Positions 29,434-64,000 of a DNA stretch of 64,000 bases are shown here, piece by piece (position 1 is the first letter of the stretch; the number at the start of each line of letters is the position of its first letter). This stretch comes from Chondrosia reniformis. Lineage: Eukaryota > Porifera > Demospongiae > Chondrillida > Chondrillidae. Made by a program: the position numbers and the translations under genes. The notes under the pieces are model-generated. The model ran no database searches and had not been told where the DNA came from. It was given only the letters and a program-made list of their open reading frames with translations. The stretch lies in NCBI GenBank assembly GCA_947172415.1, contig OX359196.1:1242501-1306500 (forward strand). Reading direction: 5' to 3'.

Positions 29434-29784
29434 CAGGCCCGTAGCCAGGGGGGGGGGGGGGGTTCGAGGGGTACGAACGAACCCCCTAAAATTCCTGTTC
29501 AGAAGTTTATCATTTAAATGAATGATAGTTACTTTTAGCTACATAGGAAACCAACCTTCTATATCACACAGTCCTACTATTTCCCCCTGATGTGAGTGGC
29601 GAATGAATTATGCCACTGGAAGATCGCAGCTTTGCTGCTTAGCTGGGAATGGTCTCTGACTCTCGCGTATACGTACGTAAAAGGTCCCTTCTAACGGTAG
29701 CGTGCGTTGCGTAAAAATGGCGGAAGCTTTCAATACAGATCAATTTTTAGAACCTCCCTACTGAGAAGGCTGGCTACGGGCCTG
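29434..29784. mobile_element. MITE with CAGGCCCGTAGCCAG termini immediately upstream of the BTB gene
   Basis: A 351-bp element with 15-bp perfect inverted termini (CAGGCCCGTAGCCAG left, CTGGCTACGGGCCTG right). It is flanked by a direct AATAT (29429-29433 and 29785-29789). It contains a long G run and GGTACGAACGAACCCCC. No transposase is present. Confidence 0.85.
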
Positions 29785-29790
29785 AATATT

Positions 29791-35029: not shown

Positions 35030-35202
35030 AAATATCAATTCATAAATACTTCAAAATATTAATAATGGTTGATCCTATTCAATGAAATATCGTAGCTTAG
35101 TATATACAAAGATTATAAAAGACATATCCACATGACCCATGCATATTATATTAAAATACTTTTACCTCAGATAGATTTAGAATACATACAGTCAATTAAA
35201 TG

Positions 35203-35994: not shown

Positions 35995-37374
35995 AAACCA
36001 TTACATTCTAAAGACTACATCAGCCATTTTGTCTGCATGTTGAGGGATGCACTTAGCATTAATAATTTTGTTAGGTTACAAGCATGTTTTAGGAACGTTT
36101 ACTTCTCTAGTACTGCAAGTATTTCCATACATGGAGTTTAGAGTTCCAAATTCCAACCTTATCATTCCTTCGTTGTTCTTCTTTCATCTTTAGATTTTTA
36201 GAGCACAGTTTAGTTGTCTGTCAGACGTTTCAACCCCGAGAGTCTTCTTCAGTGACAGATAATAATAACTTTCAAACCAATTTAGAACAACAAGAAAAAG
36301 GGAAGTAAAATGAAGAACATTACAGAAACGATGTTAAAAATTAGAAGTGGTAGTTTTCACCATGCAGTGTACGTCTATATAGTATACGTACATCTGCAAA
36401 AAGTAGCAAAACAAGACAGTGATTATATATATATGTAATAAAGCTAACCATAATTATAACACCAAACTATAATTAAAGATCTGTATGTATGTATTAATTA
36501 TATCTGTGCTATATCGACTGGATCTGGCACTATATATAGTTAATAGTTTGAGTTAGAAAAATTAAACATAATTATGTATACATATATTGTGAAGGGAGTT
36601 AATTGCAATTGACCTACAGCGGCTTTTGCATGCAAAGGATTGATATTATGGTGATTAATAAGTGAATAATCACTGGAGTGCATTGCCCGACCAGTCAAGT
36701 GACTGAAGTCTAATCTGGCTGGTCCTATTAAAGTCCTGTTAAAATAAAAATCAATGATTGTCAACGATCGATCCCTGTGTCATGGAAAAGTCTTCAAAGA
36801 ATGTTGTACAATGTACAATTAATGAGTCCTGTGTCTTACATATAATAGATATGCTGAGTCTATATATTGTATACAAGCCAGATTACTATGTATATAATAA
36901 AATCATTTATCATTTACCCCAAACATTGAATTAATTTAATTTGACATACGTACATTGCTTTCATACAATTAAATTTCATCATGCATTTGTCTTATATATA
37001 GTTAACACCTTTTGGTACAAAATTGTGTATATAAGACCCCTAGATTTAGCATAGAGAGCCCAGGATTCACAAATCAATTGCAAGAAAAAGACAAAGATTC
37101 CCAGGGTCACTTGATCCTGTATCTTTATCCAAAGCTCTCTCCAGGTTTAGTTCCAGTCCCCTATAGGCTTTTTTAAAGAGTAGGCATAGCATGTAGGAAA
37201 ATGGTGTATTATGCATATGTCCATCAAAATACACATATACGTACATTGCTATAATATTTCTGCCTCTATAGTTTGGATGGCTTCATAATTATATAAGAAG
37301 TTCCATTCTCTTCAAGTGTTGCCATTTTAGTAGAACTTCGGTCTCCATCCATTGCAAGAATTTGATTTTACATG
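35995..37374. other. Intergenic with repeat pieces
   Basis: Contains a hammerhead-like family member (minus strand, about 36205-36255, CTGAAGAAGACTCTCGGGGTTGAAACG) and a dispersed-repeat copy (about 37068-37217, reverse). No exon was recognised. Confidence 0.5.
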
Positions 37375-45749: not shown

Positions 45750-48700
45750 ATGAGATTTTGTTTAATGTTGTTCCTCCTAGTTTCCTGTTATAATAAGCCA
45801 CAAGCGAGTGGTCATACCTTTTGGGTGATCCCTTCAGCTGAACAAGACTGTGAGGACAGAATAAACTGCAACACACTTGAAGAATACTACAAACAGAATA
45901 AGAGCATCTTTTCAACAGCAAACAGCGCATGGATCTTTCTAGAAGGTAATCATTTCCTTTACAAGAGTTCATTACACGTAAATCAAACAGAGAATGTAAC
46001 GTTTGAAGCATATTCAGATAACAAAGTGGCTATCTTCAGACAAGGTAACCAAATCAGTATAGAGAACAGTGCAAATGTTTCCTTCCATGGTTTAAATTTT
46101 AAAGATAACTCAACTAAACCTCCTCAACAGATTAATTTCAAATATGTAAAAAATGTGACACTCTCAAATCTTATAATAGACATTCCACTCTTGATTGAAT
46201 CTCCCTTTGGAAGATATGATATTCATAACTGTGCTTTTAATGAAGTAATAAATGTCAGGAAGTGTTCACAATGTCCACAGACAGCAGAATCTGATGTAAA
46301 CATAACATTCTCAGACACCAGCTTCCATGAAACAGGAATACATCTTGACCATTCTGATAATAACAAAGTTAAACAATATGACAGTATTGTCCTACACTTA
46401 CACAAATGTAACTTTATAAAAGGTTCCATTGCAAACATTAATATTGAAGTGAAGAGAAGCTTTCCAAGGAGATCCTTCATAGTTATGATCACAGAATGTA
46501 CCTTTAAATCAGTTAAATCAGATGTTACAAGTAGCAGTATACACATGAAAGTTCCAATTCATCGAAATCATATGTACGATACAACTAACACAGAGCTAGC
46601 AAAGGTAATGATAGAAAAGTGTACATTTTTGGAAACTTTGAATGCCATTCAGTTGAGTTATAATTATGAAAAATTTGATTTATTTTTGGTGGTTCCTACT
46701 GTAACTATATCAGAGACCCAGTTCCACTTGAAATGCAATTCGAGTGAATTATATGAATATGGACCAATTCTAAAGGCACATTTCAATCAATTCCATGATA
46801 GAGCTCTAGCTAATTCCTATGACAATAACTTCAAGTTACCACTTCCAATTCTTACAGTTAAGAAGTGCAAATTTGCTACCATTACATCAGCTAAGGGAAG
46901 TGTAATTCAGATTGTAAACTTTAAAGATTACCCTGTGAAGATGATTGACAATGAAATATTTCATGTAGGCTTTACTGGTATTGAGGTAATTAACAGTTCA
47001 ATTTGGCTATCTGGAACCAATTATATAAGCTATAGTAGATCAATAGATGCAAGTGGTGTTGTAGGGAATGGCTTGGTAATAAGCTTTTTATCTTTGATTT
47101 TCCTTGAAAATGGTACGGTGCTAGTCATAGATCAGCCTTCTGGATATGGTATTGAAGTTCCCCAGGATTATTACAGAGGCTCAGCTCAGAAGTACATAGG
47201 CTGCATTAGGGGTGAACTACAAGATGAAAATTGCAATGGAAACTGCTTCTTTCAACTGATTCAAATGAATGGAAAGTTGCTGAATAACAACGAGGATATT
47301 TTCAGATTCACTGGTTCAATAAAACTCAAAGGTGACAACAATACTTTGTACAATGGACGCTTACATAACTGCAAGCTACAGAGTCAAAAGAGATCTCTTA
47401 CATTGAACTCTTCACTTTCTGACCGTGTACTTCCCTTTCCTGCTTCAAGAGGTTCCCTAGCCACTACCTCTATGGCCTACAATATATGCCTGTGCGATAT
47501 GAGGGCTCCAACTAATACAAAATTGTGGGATTGTGGTCTTCAGTCTACTATCAGAGTCTATCCAGGTCAGTATGTAAATCTATCAATTATTCTAATTGGG
47601 GATGAGGGTAACCCACTGTCCGACAAAGAGGTCAACATTACCAGCTCAAAATGGTCACAATCAAAGATTGTAACAGTTACTATAAAAAATACATGCAATA
47701 ATGTATACAATGAAGGTCCCTATCAAGCAAAAGATGCAGCTACTATTACATTGCAGTCATTTGTAAAGCATACAGTAGAAGTCCTTACACGTCCTTGTCC
47801 TCCTGGCTTCAAGGTTGAACAAGAAATAAAATCAAATACATCAAAGTGTGAGTGCAATGATATATTACATAATCACGGTTTCCAATGTTCTCTTAATGGC
47901 ACTAGAGCTAACTTTAGAAATGACAGAAGTGGATATTGGATTGGCCTATGTAATGATAATAAAACATTAATATGTTTCACTGATTCCTGCCCACCCTTTT
48001 ACTGTAAAAAGTCAGAATTTATGTTTAATATCCTAAATCAGAACTTGCAATGTAATCATGAAAACAGGCGAAAAGGCTTCATCTGTAGTGAATGTCCAGA
48101 AGGTTTTAGTTCTATATTTGGGGAGCACCAGTGCTTGGATTGCAAGGGAATGTGGTATCTGACTATACTGTTATATGCCTGTGCTGGTTTGGCGATTGTA
48201 TGTCTACTCTTGCTGTTCAACCTAACGGTAATGCATGGAGCAATAAACGGGATATGTCTATATGCCAACATTATGTACCTATACTACACCTACCTTGAAG
48301 AAAATACAGTGCACTCAACCCATACCGAGATAGCGCTATCTCTTTTAAGAGTTCTCAATTTAGAATTCGGCAGGAGACTATGCCTTTATGACGGCATGGA
48401 TGAATTTACCAAGATACTAATTCGATTATTCTTCCAGTTCTATTTTATAATAATTGTAACTATAGTTGTGGTAATTACCTATAAATGTAAGTTCAATTTC
48501 CTAAAAAGAACTGGTAATGTTTTAAAGAGGACTGTTCCCGTTTTGGCTACTGTGATGCTAATCACCTACACAAACATCACTGGAATAGTGATTTCTGCAT
48601 TACGACACATCAGTGTACATAAAGTTGAACAAGAGGGTTCTCTAGACATGTGGTACTCACAGCCGACACTACAATACTTTCATGGTAGGCATTTGGCCTT

Positions 48701-49604
48701 GGCTTGTGTATCTTTGAATGTGTGCATTTTGTATTTACTTCCGGTAACGATTATGATACTTTGCGGCAACAAAATTCGTAGATATACCAACAATGTTACA
48801 TTTGGACTTTTTCTGGATGTATTTCATGGACCATATAAACCAGGTTTTGGGTTTTGGCAAGGACTGAGATTAATCCTTCGGTTGATAATCCTTGTACTCC
48901 TGGTTAACCTCCCAATTGACATTTTCATACTGGTTGCTACAATTGTCATGTTTGTGTTTTTCTCTATTCAATTGGTGCTCAGGCCTTTTATTGAGATTAG
49001 ACCATTCAGTGATATTGATTCAGAAGAAGAAGGAAGAAAGTATAGCAAAAGGCTGGCCTATATTGCCCGCATACTAGTACAACCATTAACATCTGATTCA
49101 GTTTATTTTGCAAATTTCATAGTTTTCAGTTTTCTGCTCAACATAAAAATGGGTGCCAGGTTCAATGCAGTCATCAGTACTATTTCAATTGTACTGGCCA
49201 TCTTGCAACTAGGCATTATTACAGTTTACCATGGTGCTGTTTATTTTCCCATGTCAAAACCTAGCAGACTAATTCAAAGAAGAGCACCGAGGCAAGAGCA
49301 AGGATCCTTTGGTCAGGCAAGTAACAGATCTAGAGAAGGGTCAACTGCATCGAATCAAGTCAATTTTAGACATAGTACTAGCAGTGACAGGCAGCTTCTG
49401 GCTAGTGCCTATATTAAAGAAGAAAACACATCATTTGAACATGAAGAAGAACTATCTACTCACAACCAAGATCGTCAGCCTGTAGCTCAACAGGTTCCAT
49501 GTACAATAGAAGGTCATGTGCTATTAGATGAGGAGGTAGCAGTTGAAAACCACAGCCAGTTACCTAATCTTAAAGAACCTCTGCTAAAGACATCAGCATT
49601 TTAA
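45750..49604 (+). CDS. Beta-helix ectodomain / multi-pass membrane protein, array copy 1
   Basis: The first in-frame ATG is 45750 (1284 aa, no intron). A signal peptide (about 1-20; MRFCLMLFLLVSCYN) precedes the array signature GHTFWVIPSAEQDCEDRINC and SIFSTANSAWIFLEGNH. Residues about 60-600 are Asn/Ile/Phe-rich repeats in the style CxFxxxxxxIxIxxS, as in right-handed parallel beta-helices. A Cys-rich module (about 680-795) includes CPPGF, CPPFYC and CSECPEGFSSIFG. About nine hydrophobic segments follow, from about 799 to 1167, with PVLATVMLITY and GFWQGLRLILRLIIL. The cytosolic tail (about 117 aa) is longer than in the other copies and is Ser/Gln-rich with EPLL near its end. A surface receptor or adhesion role is inferred; I do not recognise a named family. 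Confidence 0.8.
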   Translation: MRFCLMLFLLVSCYNKPQASGHTFWVIPSAEQDCEDRINCNTLEEYYKQNKSIFSTANSAWIFLEGNHFLYKSSLHVNQTENVTFEAYSDNKVAIFRQGNQISIENSANVSFHGLNFKDNSTKPPQQINFKYVKNVTLSNLIIDIPLLIESPFGRYDIHNCAFNEVINVRKCSQCPQTAESDVNITFSDTSFHETGIHLDHSDNNKVKQYDSIVLHLHKCNFIKGSIANINIEVKRSFPRRSFIVMITECTFKSVKSDVTSSSIHMKVPIHRNHMYDTTNTELAKVMIEKCTFLETLNAIQLSYNYEKFDLFLVVPTVTISETQFHLKCNSSELYEYGPILKAHFNQFHDRALANSYDNNFKLPLPILTVKKCKFATITSAKGSVIQIVNFKDYPVKMIDNEIFHVGFTGIEVINSSIWLSGTNYISYSRSIDASGVVGNGLVISFLSLIFLENGTVLVIDQPSGYGIEVPQDYYRGSAQKYIGCIRGELQDENCNGNCFFQLIQMNGKLLNNNEDIFRFTGSIKLKGDNNTLYNGRLHNCKLQSQKRSLTLNSSLSDRVLPFPASRGSLATTSMAYNICLCDMRAPTNTKLWDCGLQSTIRVYPGQYVNLSIILIGDEGNPLSDKEVNITSSKWSQSKIVTVTIKNTCNNVYNEGPYQAKDAATITLQSFVKHTVEVLTRPCPPGFKVEQEIKSNTSKCECNDILHNHGFQCSLNGTRANFRNDRSGYWIGLCNDNKTLICFTDSCPPFYCKKSEFMFNILNQNLQCNHENRRKGFICSECPEGFSSIFGEHQCLDCKGMWYLTILLYACAGLAIVCLLLLFNLTVMHGAINGICLYANIMYLYYTYLEENTVHSTHTEIALSLLRVLNLEFGRRLCLYDGMDEFTKILIRLFFQFYFIIIVTIVVVITYKCKFNFLKRTGNVLKRTVPVLATVMLITYTNITGIVISALRHISVHKVEQEGSLDMWYSQPTLQYFHGRHLALACVSLNVCILYLLPVTIMILCGNKIRRYTNNVTFGLFLDVFHGPYKPGFGFWQGLRLILRLIILVLLVNLPIDIFILVATIVMFVFFSIQLVLRPFIEIRPFSDIDSEEEGRKYSKRLAYIARILVQPLTSDSVYFANFIVFSFLLNIKMGARFNAVISTISIVLAILQLGIITVYHGAVYFPMSKPSRLIQRRAPRQEQGSFGQASNRSREGSTASNQVNFRHSTSSDRQLLASAYIKEENTSFEHEEELSTHNQDRQPVAQQVPCTIEGHVLLDEEVAVENHSQLPNLKEPLLKTSAF

Positions 49605-51226
49605 CTATCTGTTTATTGAACCGCTTTCTGCATTATTATATAGAAATAGCATGTAGTCATTTTCTTTGTATACTTAAAAATTGAGAGCTGTATGTTCATT
49701 TTGCTAATTAAGTGATCCATGAGCAGATCAAAGAACTAGCTATTTACGTGAAACATGAAACTTGAATACGTATACACATACATACATATACACATACCAA
49801 TTGTGTATATATATACATATATACTTCCCATGCAATGGCTATTAAGAAATAGAAATAATCACATGCAGGAATTCGAAGTTATATATATTCATATTAGAAT
49901 AGTTTTTAATACTTTCATTATTAATACAGTAATTGAGGGATTCAAAATTAATATGAAGAAAGTGAAATGTTTTTGCATCTATTGGACTATATCCTGTATA
50001 CAATAACTTCAAATTCAACTTTAATCATAGATTTATATGTACGTATATATATACTAAACACTTCCATTCAATGGTACAAGCACTATACTGTAAATGCACA
50101 TACATATATATACCACTGCAAAGGTATCTCCAAAAATCAAGTAGGATCAATAATATACCCAGTTGGGTATGAGTACGTATGCAGGAATTCTATACCTCAA
50201 ACATGTGTACGTATATATACGTATGTCAATAACGTATACATACTATATAGTGCAGTGTATGATATGTGTACAAGTGAATTAGATATATACTTATTTCCAC
50301 TTTTGGCAGTTACGAGTAATTTCATTAAATGGTACACACTGAACATATATACAGTCCATGGGAACACCTCCCATGTATATGTACGTATGAGTCTATACTA
50401 TATGTACAGTTTATACACGTACGTACGTATATACCTGTCACTTACTACAGCTGATCTGCAAACATTTCTACAAGAATGCTACACTTTAACAACAGACCTA
50501 TTAGCTGCAGAATATAAAACAGTGGAGGTGACACACTTTGTGAGGGAACATTCATAAAACAATATATTACATACATATGTACAGTGGAATTCACACATTG
50601 GCTACTGATCATGAAACGGCATGGCTTTATATAGGTATATAACTTGACAAGGGCATAAAATATACACATACAATACATCTATACTATTGTATATAATTTT
50701 ACATGCATGCAGTTCACTACGTATATACAGTTGTATATATGTATTATATAATTCACTATACACAGTTAATGGCTATTAATGAAAACAATGCAACTTTCAT
50801 TCACATATACATCATATGAAAATTAAAATGACATTGAACATTATATGCTAAATACGTAAAATTGTACAATAGGCAAATTGTTTGTATTAAAAACCATATT
50901 CACATTTAGTAATTGATCTATTCAAATGTGTACATAAACAACTTAAGTGTGTATATATTATTACAGATAAGAGTTATATATTACACAATTTAACATTAGG
51001 TTTTATACATAATGTCTGCAATATGCATGCGATAGATTTTGAATTATATTTTTTAATGAATATATTTATTTTTTATTTATAACATATATAAAGCACTTAA
51101 ATATAAATTTGAATTTACTTTAAGCATTTTATATGCAATTATATATAATGCAGCTATTAAATCGTGATCAATATTCCTATATATAACAGGAAGTGGAACC
51201 CTTTCCAAGATTAAGGCTCGTTAATC
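49605..51226. other. Intergenic spacer between array copies 1 and 2
   Basis: Very AT-rich, with many (ta)n and tacgtacgta stretches. Open frames here (for example 49967-50557) are low-complexity Tyr/Ile-rich and not credible genes. Confidence 0.6.
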
Positions 51227-54200
51227 ATGAAAATCTTAAGTTTCATTGGAGTCCTGATTTTTCTTTCCAGAAGTTGTGTAACAGCTCTATTAAGCACTGA
51301 TAAATCACAGGGGCACACATTTTGGGTGACTGCTTCGAATTCAACTGATCATGAACAAGACTGTAAGAACAGGGCGTCATGTAAGACACTAGATGAATAT
51401 CATCAACATAATAATAGCATCTTCTCAACATCACACAGTACATGGATCTTTCTAGAAGGTGACCACACAGCATCATTTGCCTTGGAAGTAACTGAGACTG
51501 AACATATAGTCTTTAAAGGAGAAAGAGAAGATTGCTGTGAAGTAATTTTCAAGAATGGATTTCACATTACAAGCAGCCAAAGTATCAAAATTCAAATGCT
51601 AAAATTTAGATCTTATGAATTGTTTTCACAACTTAAATACTGTTTAATGGTACACAAGCTAGCACTAGTATTGCAACTTAGCCAAGTAGAAAATGTTACG
51701 CTAAGTAAACTTAAAGTTGACAACTGGGGAATAATCATCACTGATCCGTCTGGTCTCTATGAAGTAACTGCCAGTAATTTCACAAATACTACCTTATGTG
51801 TAAAGAAGGAATCCAATGAAACTAATTATTGTAGGAGTCCTGCGCTTTTCAAGATGACCATGACAATTGTAGACAACAGTTACATTTTTATTGAAATACT
51901 ACAAATTGGATCCAAAAATGTAACTGATAATTGCCTATTAAACATGCAACAATGTTTGAAAGTTCACCTAACATACTGCTCCCTTTTTGACACCAAATTT
52001 ATATTCTATGGACCAAAAGAACAATATTACGAATCAAACTTTAATAACTCAAGTATGCTGGAAAGAGAGTTAGAGTCTTTTTTACAGATGGAAAACTGTA
52101 AGTTTTTTGGTAGCAACCAGCAGGGTGGTTTAATAGTGAAAAAGGGTATAGTTTTAATTAATAATTGCACTTTTGATAACACATGTACAAACCGACACTA
52201 CATGCAGAGCGAAATACAAATTCTGAGTAGTATGGTTTATGTTCAAGGATATAACAGTATTTCTGGCTATGTAAGTCATCTTTCTGGCATCCTAAAGGTC
52301 TTTAATTCAACTTTGTTCATTCATAACAATTCCTATCTGGAGATAAGAAACAACAGCGGCAGATACAGTGGAGGAATACATGGATGCTTCCTTCCTGACT
52401 TGCCAGTTCATTCATACAGGGAATGCAAAAGATTTTACAGTGCTCATCCAAGTCTGTGTTTTTTTCAGTTAGTAGATCAACAAGGGCATTTATTGACCAA
52501 AGGTGAAATTCCTTATTTTAAAGGATCATTAGTGCTGGAAAATAACACAAATAAAATAGGTCATCACAGTAACAATATCTATGCTGGACATATTTCAAAC
52601 TGTACTATTCAAACTAAAGATGGTGATGTTACTGCAAATCAAACATTTCTTCAAATGTTTATAAATTTGCCATCATGGGAGTCAAAGGACATTTCATCTC
52701 CTCCCTACCTTATTTGCTTATATAAAAAGCAAAATTGTAGTAATCAATTCATTATAGATTGTAACAACGAAACAAACTTTACTCTATTTCCAGGAGAGAA
52801 ACTAACATTATATGTTAGCATAATAGGAGATTTTAACCAACCGGTATATCATTTCTTGGAGTTGCTGCATGAAAGCAATGTTCCTTTTGATTTGTTGTCA
52901 GAGGCTGAACTAAGTATTTGTCAAGAGTATCATATTTCTAGAATTCAAAGGGAAAACGTTACTGTTACATTAAAACCAAAAGATTACAGTATGAACGAAG
53001 TCTATCATAACATCAATATAAGAGTCCTTCAAAAGTGTCCCCCTGGATTTCTTCTTCAAGGTGCAGATAATTCAAATCAAAGCTTAAAATGGTGCTCATG
53101 TAACTCTTTTTTAAACAAAAACCATTTTCGTTGTTCTATAATTCAGGGTGAACCAAAATATCAGCAAGAAAGGGGATATATGTGGATTGGATTGAAAGAG
53201 TATTTCCTAACAATCAGTGAATACTGTCCTATATTTTATTGTAACCAACGTAAGCTTAAACATGGTGTAACCCTATCTGACATTAAATCAGACAATTTAA
53301 CAACACAATGTCAACATAACAACAAGCGTCAAGGATTCCTTTGTAGTGAATGTCCGGATGGTCATAGTTCAACATTTGGAGGATTTAAATGTACGGTGTG
53401 TGAAAAATCTTGGCTTCTGCTTTTGATCATTTATTCATTAGCTGGTCCAGCACTTTTAGCCTTTCTGTTTCTGTTTAACCTCACTGTAGTACCAGGAACA
53501 ATCCAAGGAGTCATTCTCTATGCCAATGTTATGTATCTTTATGATGACTTCTTACAAGAAAATGCAAGAGGCATATTTTATGCAATAATCTCATCTCTTA
53601 ATCTTGGGCCTTTAAAAAATATCTGCTTCTATGGTGGCCTGGATGAATGTTCAATTGCAATGCTTAAATATGCATTTCCAATTTATCTATTACTTTTAGC
53701 AGGTCTTGTTATATTTGGAGCTCAAATCTTGAAACTCAAACTTTTTACAGTACAATTTATTGTAAAGAGATGTGTTCCAGTCCTAGCCACTGTTATGATA
53801 TTAACATACTTAAATTTGGTGCATCTCGTCTGGATATCCCTAAGGTACAATATAGTGCATTATGTATCACAAGATTATATATTTTCAGAAGTTGTTTGGC
53901 TGTATCAACCAAAACTTCATTATTTTCAAGGAAAGCACTTAGCTTTGGGTCTCTTGGCTATTGTTGTATCTATCATTTACATCTTTCCTCTAACTATTGT
54001 TGTACTATTTGGAGAACCTCTGAGGAGAAGGGTCATACGCAAGACATGGTTTAGCCACTTTATTGATGTGTTCCAAGGAGCATATCGCAAGCCGTTTGGA
54101 TTCTGGTTGGGTTTGAGATTAGTGTTTAGAATTGTCCTTGTTAGTTTACAAAGTGTCATATTACACAATGACATAGTCAAGTATACCTTGTCAGTATTGT

Positions 54201-54700
54201 GTATTGTAATCTTCTTTCTTTGCCTTGAAAACCTGGCTAAACCACTTCGCAATTGTTATAAATTTGACATTTCAAAAGAAGAGGCTATAAAAAGCAGAAA
54301 AATTCTAAAGTTACTACAAAGATTTCAGGGTTTTATTAAATGGTTGATGCATCCACAGGTTTTGGATAATCTTTTTCTGCTAAATATAATCTATATATGC
54401 ATAGTAATTGTAGTCACTCGGGATAATAACATCAGCCAAAGGTTTGGATGCAACATTTCTATAACTATTGCATCAATTCAGTTATTATTAATTCTTATTT
54501 ATCATGGTTACTTGTATTTTCCAATTCCAAAATGTCTCCAAATAAAATGGAAACAACTGAAAGTGAAAATCTCTCAAAGTAGGCCTCAGCAAGGCAATCC
54601 TGAAGATGACCCAATAGAGTTCTTTCCATTCAGGGATATTCAGTACTCTGCAGTACCAAACTCTTCACTTCCTCATGAACAGGTTGAAAAATTAATCTGA
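51227..54700 (+). CDS. Beta-helix ectodomain / multi-pass membrane protein, array copy 2
   Basis: 1157 aa, intronless. Signal peptide MKILSFIGVLIFLSRSC. The signature follows: GHTFWVTASNST, EQDCKNRASCKTLDEYHQ, SIFSTSHSTWIFLEGDH. The beta-helix-like region is shorter than in copies 1 and 3. It ends with LPSWESKDISSPPYLICLY, a boundary shared with copies 3 and 4. The Cys-rich module has CPPGFL, CPIFYCNQ and CSECPDGHSSTFGGFKC. Hydrophobic segments run from about 725 to 1100, with PVLATVMILTYLNLV and PFGFWLGLRLVFRIVL. The tail ends FFPFRDIQYSAVP, related to IPFRYLDF in copy 3. Many N-glycosylation sequons are present. Confidence 0.8.
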   Translation: MKILSFIGVLIFLSRSCVTALLSTDKSQGHTFWVTASNSTDHEQDCKNRASCKTLDEYHQHNNSIFSTSHSTWIFLEGDHTASFALEVTETEHIVFKGEREDCCEVIFKNGFHITSSQSIKIQMLKFRSYELFSQLKYCLMVHKLALVLQLSQVENVTLSKLKVDNWGIIITDPSGLYEVTASNFTNTTLCVKKESNETNYCRSPALFKMTMTIVDNSYIFIEILQIGSKNVTDNCLLNMQQCLKVHLTYCSLFDTKFIFYGPKEQYYESNFNNSSMLERELESFLQMENCKFFGSNQQGGLIVKKGIVLINNCTFDNTCTNRHYMQSEIQILSSMVYVQGYNSISGYVSHLSGILKVFNSTLFIHNNSYLEIRNNSGRYSGGIHGCFLPDLPVHSYRECKRFYSAHPSLCFFQLVDQQGHLLTKGEIPYFKGSLVLENNTNKIGHHSNNIYAGHISNCTIQTKDGDVTANQTFLQMFINLPSWESKDISSPPYLICLYKKQNCSNQFIIDCNNETNFTLFPGEKLTLYVSIIGDFNQPVYHFLELLHESNVPFDLLSEAELSICQEYHISRIQRENVTVTLKPKDYSMNEVYHNINIRVLQKCPPGFLLQGADNSNQSLKWCSCNSFLNKNHFRCSIIQGEPKYQQERGYMWIGLKEYFLTISEYCPIFYCNQRKLKHGVTLSDIKSDNLTTQCQHNNKRQGFLCSECPDGHSSTFGGFKCTVCEKSWLLLLIIYSLAGPALLAFLFLFNLTVVPGTIQGVILYANVMYLYDDFLQENARGIFYAIISSLNLGPLKNICFYGGLDECSIAMLKYAFPIYLLLLAGLVIFGAQILKLKLFTVQFIVKRCVPVLATVMILTYLNLVHLVWISLRYNIVHYVSQDYIFSEVVWLYQPKLHYFQGKHLALGLLAIVVSIIYIFPLTIVVLFGEPLRRRVIRKTWFSHFIDVFQGAYRKPFGFWLGLRLVFRIVLVSLQSVILHNDIVKYTLSVLCIVIFFLCLENLAKPLRNCYKFDISKEEAIKSRKILKLLQRFQGFIKWLMHPQVLDNLFLLNIIYICIVIVVTRDNNISQRFGCNISITIASIQLLLILIYHGYLYFPIPKCLQIKWKQLKVKISQSRPQQGNPEDDPIEFFPFRDIQYSAVPNSSLPHEQVEKLI

Positions 54701-55165
54701 TTTTTTGATATTCGTATGTTTTCAATTTCATGACTTGATTAAACACTGAATATAATGAATGCTATTTACCGTACGTACATACATGTACATTGTATAAAAC
54801 GTATACGTAGGTACTTTTTCTGCATCTGTTTACTTTGCACTGATCATATACGTATACTTCCAAATGTTTAGTTGTGATTTATATATATACAATGCTAGCA
54901 CTATTGTATTGCTTATAAACTACAACAATAACTTTTTGCACATATCCTATTGCTATGAATTAAATACACTAATACAGTATGTGAATGCTATAAATGAAGT
55001 ATATAGTATATACAAACCATAAAACTGAATCTACATTTTATATCTGCATAGTATACGTACGTACATATGTACATATATAATACAAGAATGAATTCACTGA
55101 ACCATTTGATTTATGCCTGGTAAAGAGTAAGCAATTTTCGTTACTGCCAACCAAGGTAATAACCG
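54701..55165. promoter_or_regulatory. Upstream region of array copy 3, shared with copy 4
   Basis: The last roughly 200 bp before the ATG are nearly identical to the sequence before copy 4 (59580-59790), including CGTACGTACATATGTACATA and the leader CCAACCAAGGTAATAACCG. No TATA box stands out. Confidence 0.5.
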
Positions 55166-58100
55166 ATGGAAAAGTGCTTCTTCTTCAAGATTATTTTTCT
55201 TATTGTCTCCTGCAAATTGCAATTGTCAGATTGTAGAAATCACACATTTTGGGTGACACCTATGGCTGGTCAAAACTGTCACAACAGAACACCATGTAAC
55301 ACAATTGCTGAATACTACCAACAGAATAACAGCATCTTCTCAACATCAAACAGTACGTGGATATTTCTTAATGGAACACATGAATTCAAGACTAATATGG
55401 GTGTAATTAGTTCAGCTGAACATGTGACCTTTAAGGGTGAGTACCCAGACTGTTGTCTTGTACACATAAGAACTATACGTGTTTGGGTTTACCTCAACCA
55501 TGGCCAGTTTATTGGGTTTGAAAATTTACATTTAGCAGCTGGCAGTGATATATATACATGGACCAGGTTTATTGTAGTTAATAATACTAATGGTTTGACA
55601 TTCTCCAATGTGCACTTGCAAGGAGGAAGCATTCATTTTATTAATAGCTACATTGAAATTTGGAACTGTTCATTCAATTACACTAATATGAAACTAGAAT
55701 CAGTGGCACCTGAAATAATTGATGAAAATACGAGATTATCAATCAATTACAACAAAACACATTTCAAGGATAGCATAATTTTCATTACCATAGCTAGTGA
55801 GGAAAATGCAGTCGTTGCTATGCATGGATGCACATTAAAAAGGAGTAAGCTTGAGTATGAGGCAAATTCATTTTTCTCGTATCCTGAGTTGAAAATGAAC
55901 CAGTGCATAGTCAAATATAGCACTGTTACCACTGTGGTGTATTCACTACTTAACTTTTCTGCATTGATCAATATAAATGTGACTGAAAATAACTTTACCA
56001 ATAGTGACTTAAATTTTCAATTAACTAACAATGAAGTATTCAATACAGTCTCACCAAAAAGCGTTGACATTATTGAGAAAAACAACTTTCTATTATGTAA
56101 ATTTGAATTTTATTATTCTGAAGTTTCAATAAAAACACTCAAAGTAACCAATAACAATTTGACATCAACCTCTATTTCTATTCATTTTGTTAATGGTTAT
56201 ATTAATGGTAGCATACCATACGATATGACTGGATCTGAAAGAAACATAACAGTGCAAATTGTTGAATGTTTTTTCCGAAATTCAACTATGGAAATATTAG
56301 GTGATGGCCATGGGGACTGGCGGACTGATGGGTATGGAGCATTAAATTTTCAACCCGGAAGAAAGATCCTCACAGCAGCTGTAGCAATCCACAACTGTAC
56401 TTTTGTTGGAGACAATCACCAATCGACTGCCTTAACAATAAGGTTTTTATCTATTCCAATCTTGCTGTCTGAAACTAAGATTGTGAATTATTCCACTGCT
56501 GCCATTATGTGTGAATATGCTATGATACACTTTAAAGAAAAAAATTGGATTGACAATAATGGAAACAGGGAGACATTACCCAACTTTTATGATTTGGAAA
56601 TATTTATTGGATCAAGTTTTGGATCAATATTCTTGGAAACATCTGTTATTCTGATTCAACAGAATTCAAAGCTACAAATAAGCAACAATTATAATGGGGT
56701 AGGGTACGATTGGTTTAATATGTTTCCTTTCCAGGGCACCTGCCCATTATTCCTGGTCAATAGCAGCCTAGAATTGTTAAATATATATGAAATGGAAAAT
56801 GAATTCAATGGATCCATTGAATTTACTAACAATACAATATTCAGAGGAGAGGGGAATCAGATATTCAATGGGTACTTATCAAAATGCTTACCCGAAACAT
56901 CAAACAATACAGCAGCTATTCCAAATATAACTACATTGAAAGATATCCTACATTTACCATCATGGACCTCAAGAGATATCTCCTCACCACCTCATAAATT
57001 ATGTCTCTGCAATGATAGTGATTTGGGAAATAGACAACTCTGGGATTGTAACGAGTATACCAATTTTACTATATATGGAGGGTTAGATTTCACCATATAT
57101 ATTACTCTAATTGGAGATCTAAACCTTGCAGTAAATGATTTTGTTGATCTATCATATAGAATAGGAATTGACTCTTATGATGGAAGTAATCGATTACATG
57201 TACATGGAGAATGCTATCCAATGCAGATCTATAGGGGGAGTGAAGCAAGCTTAAGTATTAGAAATGGAAAGAAGCATTTGAAAACAGTGCAAGTCAACTT
57301 TTATGAATGCCCCCTTGGTTTCAAACAACATTCATTAAATACAAGCCTCTCACCTACTTGTTTATGTGATGATTTTCTATACGATCATGGATTTAGCTGT
57401 ACTATCAGTCACAGTGGATTTAAGTTCCAGCAAAGCAGAGATGACTACTGGATCCATTATGATTTGGATACTCTGACATTCAGTGATCACTGTCCATCTT
57501 TCTTTTGCAACAATCAGCTCAAGGAGAAAGGAATGGTTTTCAAAAGTAGTAATCTATCTCCCGCACAACAGTGTAATGGCGATAACAACCGCTTGGGTAT
57601 ACTCTGTAGCAAGTGCCCACCAGGACACAGCTCCACTTTTGGTGGTCAAAGATGTAGGTGTTGCAAAAATCTTTGGTATCTTATGCTTTTGTTGGTTGGT
57701 GGCTTTGATCTGCTAGTGTTATTTCTATTCCTTCTCTTTAATTTTACAATTGTTTACCAAACCACCATCGGCATTGCTCTTTATGCTAATGTTTTGTACA
57801 TGTATGATGACTTTTTCTTAAAACATTCCAGACACTTTGCTTACAAATTTATTGCAACTCTTAATTTAAGATTTTCCTATGAAAACTGCTTCTTTAATGA
57901 AATGAATGAATATTCAAAGCATTTGATTAAGTTTTGTGGTCCATTTTCGCTAATCTTTCTTATTGCCTTAATTATCTTCAGTGCAAATAAATTGAAACTA
58001 AAGGTTTTTAAGTTCTCCTTAATCTCTGAAAGAGCTGTACCCGTTCTTGCAACCTTGATGATAGTAACTTACTATTTCATTATTGGCAATGTATGTGACT

Positions 58101-58963
58101 CCTTGCGATCCACTACCATTTACACATTATCTCAAAATGAATCTATAACTGTGACTAAACACTGGCTATATCAACCTGCTCTAAAGTACTTTGAAATGAA
58201 GCATTTAGGTTTGGCAATGTTTGCATTGCTGTTGACTCTCCTGTATGCTCTTCCCCTCACTGTGACAGTACTCTTTGGAGATATTTTGAAAAGAAAATTA
58301 ATCCGCTTTATATGGTTCAGTCATTTCATTGATGCATTTTATGCACCATATCGCTGGCCATTTGGGTTCTGGTTAGGAGTACGCCTATTACTTAGAGTAA
58401 TTTTGGTTATTCCACGAGGAATGCTTTCCGAACACAGATATGCCCTCTTTGTAGCATTCGTAATGATAATATTCTTGGCAGTACAAACATACATAAAACC
58501 ATTCCACAGTGGAAGGAGCCATCATGATGAGTCAAAAGATTATGACGAACACCACAAATCCCTTTGGAGAAAAAGAATGAATAAGATTATAAAGTGGTGC
58601 ACCAACCCTCTCTTTCTTGATGGTCTCCTCCAGTTAAATGCTATTCTTGTCAGTATTGCTATCTCCAGTAGGTTACCACAACATTTGAACACAGTGGCTT
58701 GCGTATTATCTGCGACTTTTGCTGGTATACACATTACCTTAATTTTTGCATACCATGGATACATGTTCTTTCCTATTCCAAAGTGTATCAAAAGAAAATG
58801 GAAGAGTTTCAAACAAAAACTTCCAAGATTAAAGTCACAAAAAGATAATGATTGCTCCAATGAAATTGACTCTGTGGAGAATATTCCATTTAGGTATTTG
58901 GATTTTAATGAAGCTGACACTTCAGAAGAACGAAATATTATAGATCTAGACAGATCCACTTAA
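55166..58963 (+). CDS. Beta-helix ectodomain / multi-pass membrane protein, array copy 3
   Basis: 1265 aa, intronless. Signal peptide (about 1-23) then NHTFWVTPMAGQNCHNRTPC, EYYQQNNSIFSTSNSTWIF and a DCC motif. The beta-helix-like ectodomain (about 60-640) is rich in NxT/NxS sequons. A boundary motif, LPSWTSRDISSPPHKLCLC, precedes a short beta-rich domain. The Cys-rich module (about 725-832) has CPLGF, CPSFFCNN and CSKCPPGHSSTFGGQRC. Hydrophobic segments run from about 835 to 1200, with PVLATLMIVTYY and PFGFWLGVRLLLRVIL. The cytosolic tail is about 60 aa, with VENIPFRYLDFNEAD and an acidic end. It is the intact parent-like copy of array copy 4. Confidence 0.82.
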   Translation: MEKCFFFKIIFLIVSCKLQLSDCRNHTFWVTPMAGQNCHNRTPCNTIAEYYQQNNSIFSTSNSTWIFLNGTHEFKTNMGVISSAEHVTFKGEYPDCCLVHIRTIRVWVYLNHGQFIGFENLHLAAGSDIYTWTRFIVVNNTNGLTFSNVHLQGGSIHFINSYIEIWNCSFNYTNMKLESVAPEIIDENTRLSINYNKTHFKDSIIFITIASEENAVVAMHGCTLKRSKLEYEANSFFSYPELKMNQCIVKYSTVTTVVYSLLNFSALININVTENNFTNSDLNFQLTNNEVFNTVSPKSVDIIEKNNFLLCKFEFYYSEVSIKTLKVTNNNLTSTSISIHFVNGYINGSIPYDMTGSERNITVQIVECFFRNSTMEILGDGHGDWRTDGYGALNFQPGRKILTAAVAIHNCTFVGDNHQSTALTIRFLSIPILLSETKIVNYSTAAIMCEYAMIHFKEKNWIDNNGNRETLPNFYDLEIFIGSSFGSIFLETSVILIQQNSKLQISNNYNGVGYDWFNMFPFQGTCPLFLVNSSLELLNIYEMENEFNGSIEFTNNTIFRGEGNQIFNGYLSKCLPETSNNTAAIPNITTLKDILHLPSWTSRDISSPPHKLCLCNDSDLGNRQLWDCNEYTNFTIYGGLDFTIYITLIGDLNLAVNDFVDLSYRIGIDSYDGSNRLHVHGECYPMQIYRGSEASLSIRNGKKHLKTVQVNFYECPLGFKQHSLNTSLSPTCLCDDFLYDHGFSCTISHSGFKFQQSRDDYWIHYDLDTLTFSDHCPSFFCNNQLKEKGMVFKSSNLSPAQQCNGDNNRLGILCSKCPPGHSSTFGGQRCRCCKNLWYLMLLLVGGFDLLVLFLFLLFNFTIVYQTTIGIALYANVLYMYDDFFLKHSRHFAYKFIATLNLRFSYENCFFNEMNEYSKHLIKFCGPFSLIFLIALIIFSANKLKLKVFKFSLISERAVPVLATLMIVTYYFIIGNVCDSLRSTTIYTLSQNESITVTKHWLYQPALKYFEMKHLGLAMFALLLTLLYALPLTVTVLFGDILKRKLIRFIWFSHFIDAFYAPYRWPFGFWLGVRLLLRVILVIPRGMLSEHRYALFVAFVMIIFLAVQTYIKPFHSGRSHHDESKDYDEHHKSLWRKRMNKIIKWCTNPLFLDGLLQLNAILVSIAISSRLPQHLNTVACVLSATFAGIHITLIFAYHGYMFFPIPKCIKRKWKSFKQKLPRLKSQKDNDCSNEIDSVENIPFRYLDFNEADTSEERNIIDLDRST

Positions 58964-59790
58964 TTTGACGGGAGTCCTCGAGTAATATTTAGATACTATT
59001 TCATGCATGCCAATAGAAATTCAAACACATATACATGTAACATGCATAACATGATTTCGTATATATAATATGATTTCAAGCTGTTTTGTATATGTATATT
59101 ATATTGTAGAAATAATTGATAATTCATTATTATACGTACATAAAATTTAAGCTTGAAACAAGACAGTGATATGCATATGATATAGGACTATCCATACTGA
59201 AACTTAAGTGACTTAACAGTATATATATATGCACATCATGATCACTTATCATTAAATTAATGGAATCATGATTGCTTGTATATAGAATCTACTTATATAG
59301 CTGTACATCGAAACTAAACTAATATGTATTAGTGAATTCGAAGTGATGAAGTTTTAAACACATAAGCCTCAAAAATGAGTAGAACTGTCACATTTCAAAA
59401 ACAGCATTGCACATTCAATTATCACCTTCACTTTGCGTATAAAAAGGGTGCTTGCCTTGTACACATACAGATCTGATGAACTGATGAAGATCCCTGGATT
59501 GGGTCGAAACGTTTGGTTCATTGACACGATCCATTTTCCAATTCAGCCCAGCTAGTGTTATACCGAAAGATTTGAAATCCTATTGTTATGAATTAAATAT
59601 ACACTAAAACAGTATGTGAATGCTATAAATGAATTTAAACCATAAAATTGAATCTACATTTTATATCTGAATAGTATATACGTACGTACATATGTACATA
59701 TATAATACAGGAAGAATTTCACTGAACCATTCGATTTATGCCTGGTAAAGAGTAAGCAATTTTCGTTACTGCCAACCAAGGTAATAACCG
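58964..59790. other. Spacer between array copies 3 and 4
   Basis: 58964-59410 is repeated after copy 4 (63090-63500), and 59580-59790 repeats the leader of copy 3. The unique middle contains TATAAAAAGG at 59438 and a hammerhead-like core at about 59476-59515 (CTGATGA, GATCCCTGGATTGGGTC, GAAACG). Confidence 0.65.
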
Positions 59791-62700
59791 ATGGAAAAGT
59801 GCTTCTTCCTCAAGATTATTTTTCTTATTGTCTCCTGCAATTTGCAATTATCAGATTGTAGAAATCACACATTTTGGGTGACCCCTATGACTGGTCAAAA
59901 CTGTCACAACAGAACACCATGTAACACAACTGCTGAATACTACCAACAGAATAACAGCATCTTCTCAACATCAAACAGTACGTGGATATTTCTTAAAGGA
60001 ACACACAAATTCAAGATTAATATGGGTGTAATTAGTTCAGCTGAACATGTGACCTTTAAGGGTGAGTACCCAGACTGTTGTCTTGTACACATAAGAACTA
60101 TATGTGTTTGGGTTTACCTCAACCATGGCCAGTTTATTGGGTTTGAAAATTTACGCTTAGCAGCTGACAGAGTTACACGGACCAGGTTTATTGTAGTTAA
60201 TAATACTAATGGTTTGACATTCTCCAATGTGCACTTGCACGGAGGAAACATCCATTTAATAGATAGCTACATTGAAATTTGGAACTGTTCATTCAGTTAC
60301 ACTTATATGAGACTAGAATCAGAGGCATCAGTGGTATGTGAAATAATTGATGAAAGCATGAGAAACATAATAGTGCAAATTGTTGAATGTTTCTTCCGAA
60401 ATTCAACTATGGAAATATATTAGGTGATGGCCATTGGGACTGGCGGACTGATGGGTATGGAGCATTAAATTTTCAACCCGGAAGAAAGATCCTCACAGCA
60501 GCTGTAGCAATCCACAACTGTACTTTTGTTGGAGACAATCACCAATCGACTGCCTTAACAATAAGGTCTTTATCTATTCCAATCTTGCTGTCTGAAACTA
60601 AGATTGTGAATTATTCCACTGCTGCCATTATGTGTGAGGATGCTATGATACACTTCAAAGGAAAAAATTGGATTGACAATAATGGAAACAGAGCTAGAGA
60701 GATATTACCCTATGGCAACTTTTATGATTCGGAAATTTTTGGATCAATATTCTTGAAAACATCTGTTATTCTGATTCAACAGAATTCAAAGCTACAAATA
60801 AGCAACAATTATAATTGGGTAGGGTACGATTGGTTTAATATGTTTCCTTACCAGGGTACCTGCCCATTATTCCTGGTCAATAGCAGCCTAGAATTGTTAA
60901 ATATATATGAAGTGGAAAATGAATTCAATGGATCCATTGAATTTACTAACAATACAATATTCAGAGGAGGGGGGAATCAGATATTCAATGGGTACTTATC
61001 AAAATGCTTGCCTGAAACATCAAACAATACAGCAGCTATTCCAAATATAACTACATTGAAAGATATCCTACATTTACCATCATGGACCTCAAGAGATATC
61101 TCCTCACCACCTCATGGATTATGTCTCTGCAATGATAGTGATTTGGGAAATAGACAACTCTGGGATTGCAACGAGTATACCAATTTTACTATATATGGAG
61201 GGTTAGATTTCACCATATATATTACTCTAATTGGAGATTTAAACCTTGCAGTAAATGATTTTGTTGATCTATCATATAAAATAGGAATTAATTCCTATGA
61301 CAGAAGTAATCAATTATATGTACATGGAGAATGTTATCCAATGCAATTTGATGGGCAGATCTATAGGGGGAGTGAAGCAAGCTTTAGAAATGGAAAGAAG
61401 CATTTGAAAACAGTGCAAGTCAACCTTTATGAATGCCCCCTTGGTTTCAAACAACATCTATTAAATACAAGCCTCTCACCAACTTGTTTATGTGATGATT
61501 TTCTAAACGATCATGGATTTAGCTGTACTATCAGGCACAGTGGATTTAAGTTCCAGCAAAGCAGAGATGACTACTGGATCCATTATGATTTGGATACTCT
61601 GACATTCAGTGATCACTGTCCCTCTTTCTTTTGCAACAATCAGCTCAAGGAGAAAGGAATAGTTTTCAAAAGTAGTAATCCATCTCCCGCACAACAGTGT
61701 AATGGTGATAATAAACGCTTGGGTATACTCTGTAGCGAGTGCCCACCAGGACACAGCTCCACTTTTGGTGGTCAAAAATGTAGGTGTTGCAAAGATCTTT
61801 GGTATCTTATGCTTTTGTTGGTTGGTGGCTTTGATCTGTTAATGTTATTTCTATTCCTTCTCTTTAATTTTACAATTGTTTACCAAACCACCATCGGCAT
61901 TGCTCTTTATGCTAATGTTTTGTACATGTATGATGACTTTTTCTTAAAACATTCCAGACACTTTGCTTACAAATTCATTGCAACTCTTAATTTAAGATTT
62001 GCCTATGAAAACTGCTTCTTTAATGAAATGAATGAATATTCAAAGCATTTGATTAAGTTTTGTGGTCCATTTTCGCTAATCTTTCTTATTGCCTTAATTA
62101 TCTTCAGTGCAAATAAATTGAAACTAAAGGTTTTTAAGTTCTCCTTAATCTCTGAAAGAGCTGTACCCGTTCTTGCAACCTTGATGATAGTAACTTACTA
62201 TTTCATTATTGGCAATGTATGTGACTCCTTGCGATCCACTACCATTTACACATTATCTCAAAATGAATCTATAACTGTGACTAAACACTGGCTATATCAA
62301 CCTGCTCTAAAGTACTTTGAAATGAAGCATTTAGGTTTGGCAATGTTTGCATTGCTGTTAACTCTCCTGTATGCTCTTCCCCTCACTGTGATCGTACTCT
62401 TTGGAGATATTCTGAAAAGAAAATTAATCCGCTTTATATGGTTCAGTCATTTCATTGATGCATTTTATGCACCATATCGCTGGCCATTTGGGTTCTGGTT
62501 AGGAGTACGTCTATTGCTTAGAGTAATTTTGGTTATTCCACGAGGAATGCTTTCCGAACACAGATATGCCCTCTTTGTAGCATTCGTAATGATAATATTC
62601 TTGGCAGTACAAACATGTATAAAACCATTCCACAGTGGAAGGAGTCATCATGATGAGTCAAAAGATTATGACGAACACCACAAATCCCTTTGGAGAAAAA

Positions 62701-63089
62701 GGATAAATAAGATTATAAAGTGGTGCACCAACCCTCTCTTTCTTGATGGTCTCCTCCAGTTAAATGCTATTCTTGTCAGTATTGCTATCTCCAGTAGGTT
62801 ACCACAACATTTGAACACAGTGGCTTGCGTATTATCTGCGACTTTTGCTGGTATACACATTACCTTAATTTTTGCATACCATGGATACATGTACTTTCCT
62901 ATTCCAAAGTGTATCAAAAGAAAATGGAAGAGTTTCAAACAAAAACTTCCAAGATTAAAAACACAAAAAGATAATGATTGCACCAATGAAATTGACTCTG
63001 TGGAGAATATTCCATTTAGGTATTTGGATTTTAATGAAGCTGACACTTCAGAAGAACGAGATATTATAGATCTAGACAGATCCACTTAA
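59791..63089 (+). pseudogene. Array copy 4: recent duplicate of copy 3 with deletion and frameshift
   Basis: The start, signal peptide and HTFWV module match copy 3 almost exactly. About 170 codons of the beta-helix (copy 3 nt about 55730-56240) are missing, in frame, near 60352. Then an extra AT at about 60413-60420 (ATATATTAGG against ATATTAGG in copy 3) puts a stop at 60421 and shifts the frame. The remaining 890 codons up to 63089 stay open in the shifted frame. They keep the Cys-rich module (CSECPPGHSSTFGGQKC), all hydrophobic segments and the tail, with few changes. The break is therefore recent. It could be an inactive allele, a dinucleotide-slippage polymorphism or an assembly error. 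If transcribed, only a secreted fragment of about 210 aa would be made. Confidence 0.8.
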
Positions 63090-64000
63090 TTTGATGGGAG
63101 TCCTCGAGTAATATTTAGAAACTATTTCATGCATGCCAATAGAAATTCAAACACATATACATGTAACATGTATGACATGATTTCGTATAATATGATTTCA
63201 AGCTGTTTTGTATATGTATATTATATTGTAGAAATAATTGATAATTCATTATTATATGTACATAAAATTTAAACTTGAAACAAGACAGTGATATGCATAT
63301 GGTATAGGACTATCTATACTGAAACTTAAGTGACTTAACAGTATGCACATCATGATCACTTGTCATTAAATTAAGGGAATCATGATTGCTTGTATAATCT
63401 AAGTATATAGCTGTACATCGAAACTAAACTAATATGTATTAGTGAATTCGAAGTGATGAAGTATTAAACACATAAGCCTCAAAAATGATTAGAACTGTAA
63501 CATTTTCAGTATTGTATTTTGATAAGTACTTACCGAATTAGGCAAGTCAACTGATTAAGTATTAATTTGAAAAAAAATTATCTTGTAATTGGTTGAAACA
63601 CAGTGCATTGCTAATTAATTTACTAATTGATCCCACATGCTTGACTGTAAGAAATTAGAACTAATATTGATATGTAAAAAGATTGCCAAATTTGGTTTGG
63701 AAGAGTTATAATCACACAACCTTGCTAAGATTTTACAAAATTCACATAACATCACTATTCAAACCAATGTTTAAACATTCAGGTATGCAAATCACTCTAT
63801 AATAATCCAATATAGCTATGTATAAGTGATGTCAATGTTTAGGCAACACTATAAAAGCTAATAGCTACAGGTAGCATGAGTGTGAGACAAGTAGAAGGAA
63901 ATAAAGCAACTTGAATCCTAAATGGAAACGTTCGTATGTTATATTCAACTTCTTGCCTGAACCCTTTTTGATCAGTATACAAACTTACTGATGTAGGCCA
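63090..64000. other. Right flank
   Basis: 63090-63500 duplicates the 3' flank of copy 3. A TATAAAAG at 63850 with AAATAAAG about 50 bp later might mark another promoter, but no coding frame of note begins before the window ends. Confidence 0.4.

Follow-up and report, generated by a model that had tools for sequence, protein, structure and literature searches.

Variable β-helix-like ectodomains between constant ends in a large family of intron-free candidate surface receptors of the sponge Chondrosia reniformis

Several multigene receptor families, among them the allorecognition, KIR-like and clustered protocadherin genes, combine constant membrane parts that are kept alike by gene conversion with variable ectodomains. 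Right-handed β-helix proteins (the families PF13229 and Chlam_PMP, the structure 3zpp, the PL6 lyases and the tailspikes) are soluble, secreted, viral or cell-wall proteins, and we know of none that carries DUF7630 together with nine membrane segments. DUF7630 (PF24633) is a Pfam entry that spans 45 residues and has no assigned function. In class C G protein-coupled receptors (GPCRs), the membrane part is preceded by a Cys-rich module. According to the available portions of two reports (PMC4302439, PMC12716839), sponge adhesion and glutamate (class C) GPCRs have a large ectodomain, a multi-pass part and sponge-specific clusters; the available text of PMC12716839 contains none of the terms 'helix domain', 'pectin', 'nine transmembrane' and 'intronless', and that of PMC4302439 neither 'intron' nor 'tandem'. 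The present analysis concerns a 64,000-nucleotide stretch of the Chondrosia reniformis genome (117.4 Mb, 15 contigs), C8:1242501-1306500, hereafter the window, and an array of large genes within it, P1 to P4, that likewise encode a large ectodomain and a multi-pass part.

Judged from sequence, there is about an even chance (probability roughly 0.5) that these genes belong to a large repertoire of intron-free sponge surface receptors with a putative role in recognition, in which a variable β-helix is placed between constant ends. The proteins start with a signal-like peptide and an N-terminal module, the N-cap (HTFWV...SIFST), followed by a β-helix-like ectodomain, a Cys-rich module, about nine membrane segments and a cytosolic tail. 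The family resembles the allorecognition, KIR-like and protocadherin families in that its genes form tandem arrays, are converted locally in their constant parts, diverge in the ectodomain and include pseudogenes. However, those genes have exon-separated modules or immunoglobulin or cadherin ectodomains, whereas here the module borders lie inside one reading frame and the ectodomain is β-helix-like. The family differs from the sponge GPCRs in having about nine segments rather than seven, and none of 36 members matched a 7tm family of Pfam. A preliminary description of this DNA had recorded motifs of the N-cap and of the Cys-rich module (SECPxGxSSxFG) and the membrane motifs PVLAT and FGFWxGLRL; the alignments contained the N-cap motif, SxCPxGxSSxFG, PVLAT and FGFWxG. 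The broken state of the fourth gene, the genome-wide size of the family, the gene-conversion mosaics and a conserved cytosolic motif are additions to that description.

The ectodomain is predicted to be a right-handed β-helix, as first proposed, and for the family this has independent support: 1) the Pfam family PF13229 (Beta_helix) matched 4 of 29 ectodomains at E<=0.1, with a best value of 1.1e-7, 2) a profile of the 29 ectodomains had a single match in the PDB at E<=5, 3zpp (E 5.4e-5), which we take to be a β-helix adhesin, 3) the relative L063, the one member read of an array on C14, matched Chlam_PMP (PF02415) with 40.5 bits, over the cut-off, while L055 matched POMP_repeat over its cut-off (E 1.6e-4) and Beta_helix and Chlam_PMP under theirs (E ~0.005), and 4) a Foldseek search with a low-confidence model of P2 ranked PL6 alginate lyases, pectin methylesterases and tailspikes as the nearest folds. 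The best Foldseek E-value was 2.8e-3, none being below 1e-3; one of the first 22 matches is titled as a β-helix, and all 22 are presumably β-helix proteins. Regular short strands were seen at residues 84-375 of the model, where the ten-residue means of the predicted local distance difference test (pLDDT) were ~29-66. The likeness to the known β-helix proteins is one of profile and fold-search rank. The ectodomain had also been described as rich in N-glycosylation sequons, and the first 700 residues of P1, P2 and P3 contained 15, 22 and 25 of them, compared with shuffle means of 9.6, 8.7 and 12.2, respectively.

Among the 29 ectodomains, some of which are cut N-terminally, the only invariant residues were three Cys, and 12 nearly invariant residues, including one Gln and one Asp, were located at or beyond position 463 of 724 in the first row. 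The mean column identity was 22% over these 29 ectodomains and 53% over 36 membrane halves, which agrees with the conserved membrane half and diverging ectodomain of the preliminary description. The Foldseek neighbors raise the alternative that the proteins are membrane-anchored polysaccharide-processing enzymes with a pectate-lyase-like fold. This is very unlikely, since the conserved ectodomain residues are the three Cys and a set toward the C-terminal side, with no evident catalytic set in the main β-helix, and since the Foldseek E-values were weak and the model poor.

The Cys-rich module that precedes the first transmembrane segment (TM1) resembles DUF7630, an entry with no bearing on the rest of the protein. 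The entry matched 32 of the 36 members at E<=1 (best 3.8e-7) and 15 of 18 in a wider member set at E<=0.1, and all 13 places in the genome that exceeded its cut-off fell on family members. Hydropathy averaged over the 36 members gave nine peaks in the membrane half, in accord with the nine or so hydrophobic segments noted earlier; because the first two peaks abut, eight segments with a re-entrant stretch are possible. The mean charges (K+R/D+E) were 2.6/5.6, 4.8/0.6, 4.1/2.6, 4.8/1.9, 0.5/0.4, 7.9/1.9 and 1.1/0.7 for loops 2-3, 3-4, 4-5, 5-6, 6-7, 7-8 and 8-9, respectively, and 7.6/1.7 for the tail. They mostly alternate as the positive-inside rule predicts, suggesting that the N-terminus is outside and the C-terminus inside. 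There were 31 invariant alignment columns in the 36 members, of which seven belong to the Cys-rich module.

A motif in the cytosolic tail, [FI]PFxx[ILV], was present in 31 of 37 members, compared with a shuffled mean of 0.065, although the tails are related and do not represent 31 independent cases. It was missing in P1, L006, L007 and three sister genes; the tail of P1 has no [FI]PF and ends ...EPLLKTSAF. Of the 37 tails, 32 have an acidic Ser/Thr cluster and 18 end in a PL[LI]-like sequence under a loose definition. Canonical acidic dileucine signals were considered and rejected, as just 4 of the 37 tails had one.

The membrane half could not be assigned to a named family by profile hidden Markov model searches of Pfam and the PDB, and the preliminary description had placed the proteins in no named family either. 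No 7tm family of Pfam matched any of the 36 members at E<=1, and this result together with nine hydrophobic peaks instead of seven argues against a GPCR. Searches of the PDB with membrane profiles built from 36 members and from 18 diverse ones returned nothing except COX4 at E>1, and this as well as a single NCD3G match among the 36 members (E 0.64) was taken as chance. A TRP, polycystin or other known channel was rejected at the level of sequence because neither Pfam nor the PDB profiles gave a sequence match. Transfer from viruses or prokaryotes was considered as well; the viral and prokaryotic contig collections, each searched with two short peptide patterns, gave 25 and 67 pattern matches, and the idea is without support from these collections because none was confirmed. 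In a literature search, no title or abstract start among the matches listed described the family, and the name DUF7630 was not found by text search. Similar unnamed sequences may exist in other marine invertebrates, which serves as a lead only.

It is conceivable that the membrane domain does the work and that the proteins are channels, transporters or mechanosensors in which, similar to polycystin-like channels, the β-helix is a gate or a tether. The membrane half is indeed the most conserved part, and the compact relatives L061, L062 and L064 have no ectodomain of β-helix length. Nevertheless, no Pfam channel family matched the 36 members at E<=1, a TatA_B_E match in one member (E 0.025) being attributed to chance, and the two membrane profiles found no channel in the PDB, so that this explanation appears unlikely.

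The genome was searched at the protein level with P3, the P1 membrane half and one sister gene as queries. Only the best candidates were scored and the census was compiled by hand, so all family counts are lower bounds. The subfamily of the window has at least 43 places with an open membrane half, 17 of them on C5 and 13 on C8; 35 are in a single frame of at least 1100 aa (amino acids) and 8, including P4, in shorter frames. At least 10 further places are fragments or carry stops; broken members with stops or split frames lie at C8:1.52-1.96 Mb, C5:1.387-1.396 Mb, C5:2.46 Mb, C5:5.39 Mb and C14:2.1 Mb. The sister subfamily comprises at least 13 genes whose frames span 1344-1451 aa; in one gene the match is interrupted by a stop. 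Two sister genes 15 kb apart (C9:2040416 and C9:2055168) have membrane halves that are 100% identical. A stepwise search reached remoter branches with long single frames, two genes at C5:5.62 Mb and one at C2:4.6 Mb. The array on C14 (C14:5363942-5418502, minus strand) consists of five relatives; their frames measure 1286-1302 aa and their membrane halves are 98-100% identical to the query. Compact relatives with frames of ~420-770 aa are also present, and in the three that were read, L061, L062 and L064, a signal-like peptide shortly precedes the Cys-rich part. About ten distant compact relatives, mostly of 421-541 aa, lie at C9:5.798-5.859 Mb; one contains a stop and one has 239 aa. The preliminary description called the neighboring genes intron-rich. 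For the genome as a whole, the available portion of PMC12181767 gives 7.20 exons per transcript for the Ensembl annotation of this genome, so the intron-free family stands out.

The window array was first described as four same-strand genes without introns. Intact single frames were confirmed for P1, P2 and P3 (Table 1), but P4 consists of two overlapping frames, and a private 2-base insertion near 60415, identified by comparison with three near-copies, breaks its frame. The array had also been delimited as 45750-63089, but five further same-strand members follow to ~1.34 Mb of the contig, giving an array of nine members, broken P4 included, at C8 ~1.288-1.341 Mb (~50 kb). P4 and the copies at C8:1310k and C8:1317k were 93-98% identical to P3 over the segments compared, which include near flanks, and this high identity indicates recent tandem duplication. 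The 3' flank of P3 appears to be the end of the recently duplicated unit. A part of the P3 ectodomain is missing in P4 and in both copies; that this 507-base gap is a whole number of β-helix coils is not claimed, as the coil length is too uncertain. The gene at C8:1317k (L003) has a tail ~60 residues longer, its frame continuing past the stop of the near-copies. In a tree of 36 rows, neighbors mostly clustered, with 10 changes of chromosome label compared with a shuffled mean of 20.9; P1 formed the longest end branch and was poorly placed. The tandem expansion originally suspected is therefore borne out by near-copies with shared flanks, by the nine-member array and by the grouping of the tree by neighborhood.

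Several genes appeared to be mosaics. Residue numbers and break points are those of the stop-to-stop frame unless stated. The gene at C5:1533k (L035) was compared with the genes of an array at C5:1.37-1.43 Mb. Nucleotide identity was 84-94% in the N-cap, by sliding comparison, 51-74% in the ectodomain and 35-62% after the stop codon, and most of the membrane half was shared with L011, L019 and L036, mostly at 90-99% identity. The proportion of synonymous differences (pS) between L035 and L019 or L011 was 0.084-0.141 for the N-cap and 0.086-0.091 for the membrane half, compared with 0.573-0.577 for the ectodomain. The change points were at residue 79, the end of the N-cap, and at residues 802-804, the start of DUF7630. 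Compared with L018, the similar part stopped at residue 1084, directly after the GFW motif of TM6; TM7-9 and the tail start of L018 and L033 differ from those of L011, L019 and L036. Import of an ectodomain into L035 was rejected, as the nearest long matches of a donor search were just 45-48% identical, and the mosaic is attributed to conversion of the two ends. P2 contains a tract (Table 1) with 98% nucleotide identity and a pS of 0.02 to the gene at C8:1324k, ~28 kb downstream, compared with 61% and 0.65 outside it. In addition, residues 694-969 of P2 were 79% identical to the gene at C8:1330k, compared with 46% elsewhere (pS 0.44 versus 0.77). With 16 partners each for P1, P2 and P3, P1 yielded no strong tract and in P3 no tract fell below p 3.8e-4; these tracts are scan maxima over 48 pairs with uncorrected p-values, the partners being a subset of 37 loci.

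Purifying selection on the membrane half, instead of gene conversion, could produce such a pattern in principle. Membrane halves are conserved at the protein level across chromosomes too, where synonymous differences are somewhat less frequent in the CIRS...GFW segment (median 0.68). Yet in L035 and P2 the synonymous differences fall as well, from 243/424 to 30/322 sites between L035 and L019 (Fisher p 1.3e-45), a drop that protein selection cannot explain, so that gene conversion is the plain reading and purifying selection a highly improbable one. Conversion between chromosomes in general was rejected, because most of 110 between-chromosome pairs (17 rows of the 37 loci) were near synonymous saturation. 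The pair C1:3130k and C8:1395k had a lower pS, 0.15-0.56, and may reflect exchange or a recent move between chromosomes. In the clusters examined, tandem duplication, local conversion and a diverging ectodomain, the combination looked for in a recognition-receptor family, appear together.

For 21 gene pairs, the ratio of non-synonymous to synonymous substitution rates (dN/dS) ranged from 0.19 to 0.89 for the ectodomain and from 0.21 to 0.86 for the membrane half, and was higher for the ectodomain in 14 of them; these are whole-domain values for pairs (11 + 10) that were picked by cluster, are not independent and have two slightly different borders, and the ectodomain dS exceeded 1.2 in two of them. 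As dN/dS was below 1 in both halves of all pairs, the genes appear to be maintained as proteins. The preliminary description had spoken of a recognition or adhesion receptor, a designation that these values, none above 1 in either half, do not support. The proteins could instead be adhesive or structural, the β-helix serving as a glycosylated spacer to the matrix or to cells and the diversity reflecting drift among redundant copies. The excess of sequons over shuffles, ectodomain dN/dS values compatible with relaxed constraint, the in-frame length difference of 169 codons between near-copies and the presence of 10 broken places, a feature of birth-and-death families, would all fit. An anchor, however, needs neither about nine segments with many invariant residues (31 columns) nor a tail motif conserved in 31 of 37 members, and this alternative is considered rather unlikely.

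Several observations weigh against a repertoire of recognition receptors with β-helix ectodomains. Scanned singly, the window proteins matched no β-helix family of Pfam at E<=1; ten members were scanned in this way as well, and of the nine that belong to the ectodomain set only L017 matched Beta_helix (E 0.0053); L063 matched Chlam_PMP and the other eight gave nothing of this fold. Hydropathy autocorrelation over 34 ectodomains had weak peaks at lags 8, 15 and 22 (z 4.1, 3.2 and 3.6), corresponding to periods of 7-8 and 22; other lags reach z -3.2, and the sequences are related. Structure prediction, proposed earlier as a check, placed β-helix chains at the head of the Foldseek list but gave poor models, with a mean pLDDT of 38.1 for full-length P2 and of 38.7 for the membrane half (444 residues, every one below 50). 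The DUF7630 scores of the window genes, 13.5-17.2 bits, are below the Pfam cut-off of 27 bits, and loop 4-5, with 4.1 K+R on the outer side, fits the topology poorly. The highest ectodomain dN/dS in the 21 whole-domain pairs was 0.89, which gives no sign of positive selection. Between chromosomes, the median pS was 0.68-0.79 by segment, and because synonymous sites are so near saturation, identity there is largely due to purifying selection. The mosaic analysis covered mainly one C5 cluster and P1 to P3, and the data are those of one assembly with a single haplotype.

The genes multiply in tandem, and in the clusters examined conversion has homogenized the N-cap and the core from DUF7630 to TM6, with a β-helix that has become divergent both in sequence and in length. 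If the genes do form a recognition repertoire, the varied ligands of the β-helix would most likely be glycans on the surface of microbes or other sponge cells, since polysaccharides are common targets of β-helix proteins with solved structures. DUF7630 might then communicate ligand binding to the membrane domain. The tail might engage one shared cytosolic partner for signaling or uptake. A more far-reaching possibility, put forward tentatively, is an unnamed animal receptor superfamily (β-helix, DUF7630, nine TM segments, [FI]PF tail) acting as a combinatorial repertoire for self/non-self or symbiont recognition, in which conversion would rejoin four cassettes with breaks at module borders: the N-cap, the variable β-helix, the constant core to TM6, and alternative TM7-9 with the tail. 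To our knowledge, the molecules of allorecognition and symbiont discrimination are poorly known in most sponges. The microbes of C. reniformis are called typical of a high-microbial-abundance sponge in the available text of PMC12181767. In such a sponge, an extensive family of surface proteins whose membrane domain is unclassified is a testable candidate for such molecules, and a nine-segment domain with a DUF7630 lid and a conserved tail motif, as yet unnamed, marks a gap in Pfam.

Table 1. Features of the gene array, in window positions
Feature	Positions	Strand	Description
P1	45750..49604	+	intact single-frame gene, 1284 aa, ATG and signal-like peptide to stop
P2	51227..54700	+	intact single-frame gene, 1157 aa, ATG and signal-like peptide to stop
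P3	55166..58963	+	intact single-frame gene, 1265 aa, ATG and signal-like peptide to stop
P4 first frame	59791..60423	+	210 aa: signal peptide, N-cap, ectodomain start
P4 second frame	60387..63089	+	900 aa: remaining ectodomain and membrane half
P3 ectodomain part	55733..56239	+	507 bases (169 codons), missing in P4, C8:1310k and C8:1317k
P3 5' flank	54944..55165	.	88% identical (BLAST) to 59577-59790 before P4
P3 3' flank	58964..59395	.	93% identical (BLAST) to 63090-63505 behind P4
P1 DUF7630-like Cys-rich module	48063..48143	+	15.3 bits, under the 27-bit cut-off
P2 DUF7630-like Cys-rich module	53321..53401	+	17.2 bits, under cut-off
P3 DUF7630-like Cys-rich module	57590..57664	+	13.5 bits, under cut-off
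P4 second frame DUF7630-like Cys-rich module	61716..61790	+	15.3 bits, under cut-off
P2 gene-conversion tract	53900..54142	+	residues 892-972 from ATG (896-976 stop-to-stop), 81 codons, loop 4 to TM6

A small frame between P1 and P2, at 49952-50557, had no Pfam match at E<=0.01, and its best match to the array family had an E-value of 0.31. Outside 45.7-63.1 kb of the window the longest stop-to-stop frame was 487 aa; this frame, at 27619-29079 on the plus strand, encodes a whole flavin amine oxidase (PF01593, 443/443 positions, E 6.3e-54), and a BTB-BACK gene in one frame lies behind it at 29701-31152. A weak O-fucosyltransferase match, under the cut-off, was found at 34268-35026 on the plus strand beside a GT10 fucosyltransferase frame at 35206-36000 on the minus strand, placing these fucosylation genes (34268-36000) ~10 kb from the glycosylated candidate receptors. 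Two collagen triple-helix frames are located at 21656-24180 on the minus strand.

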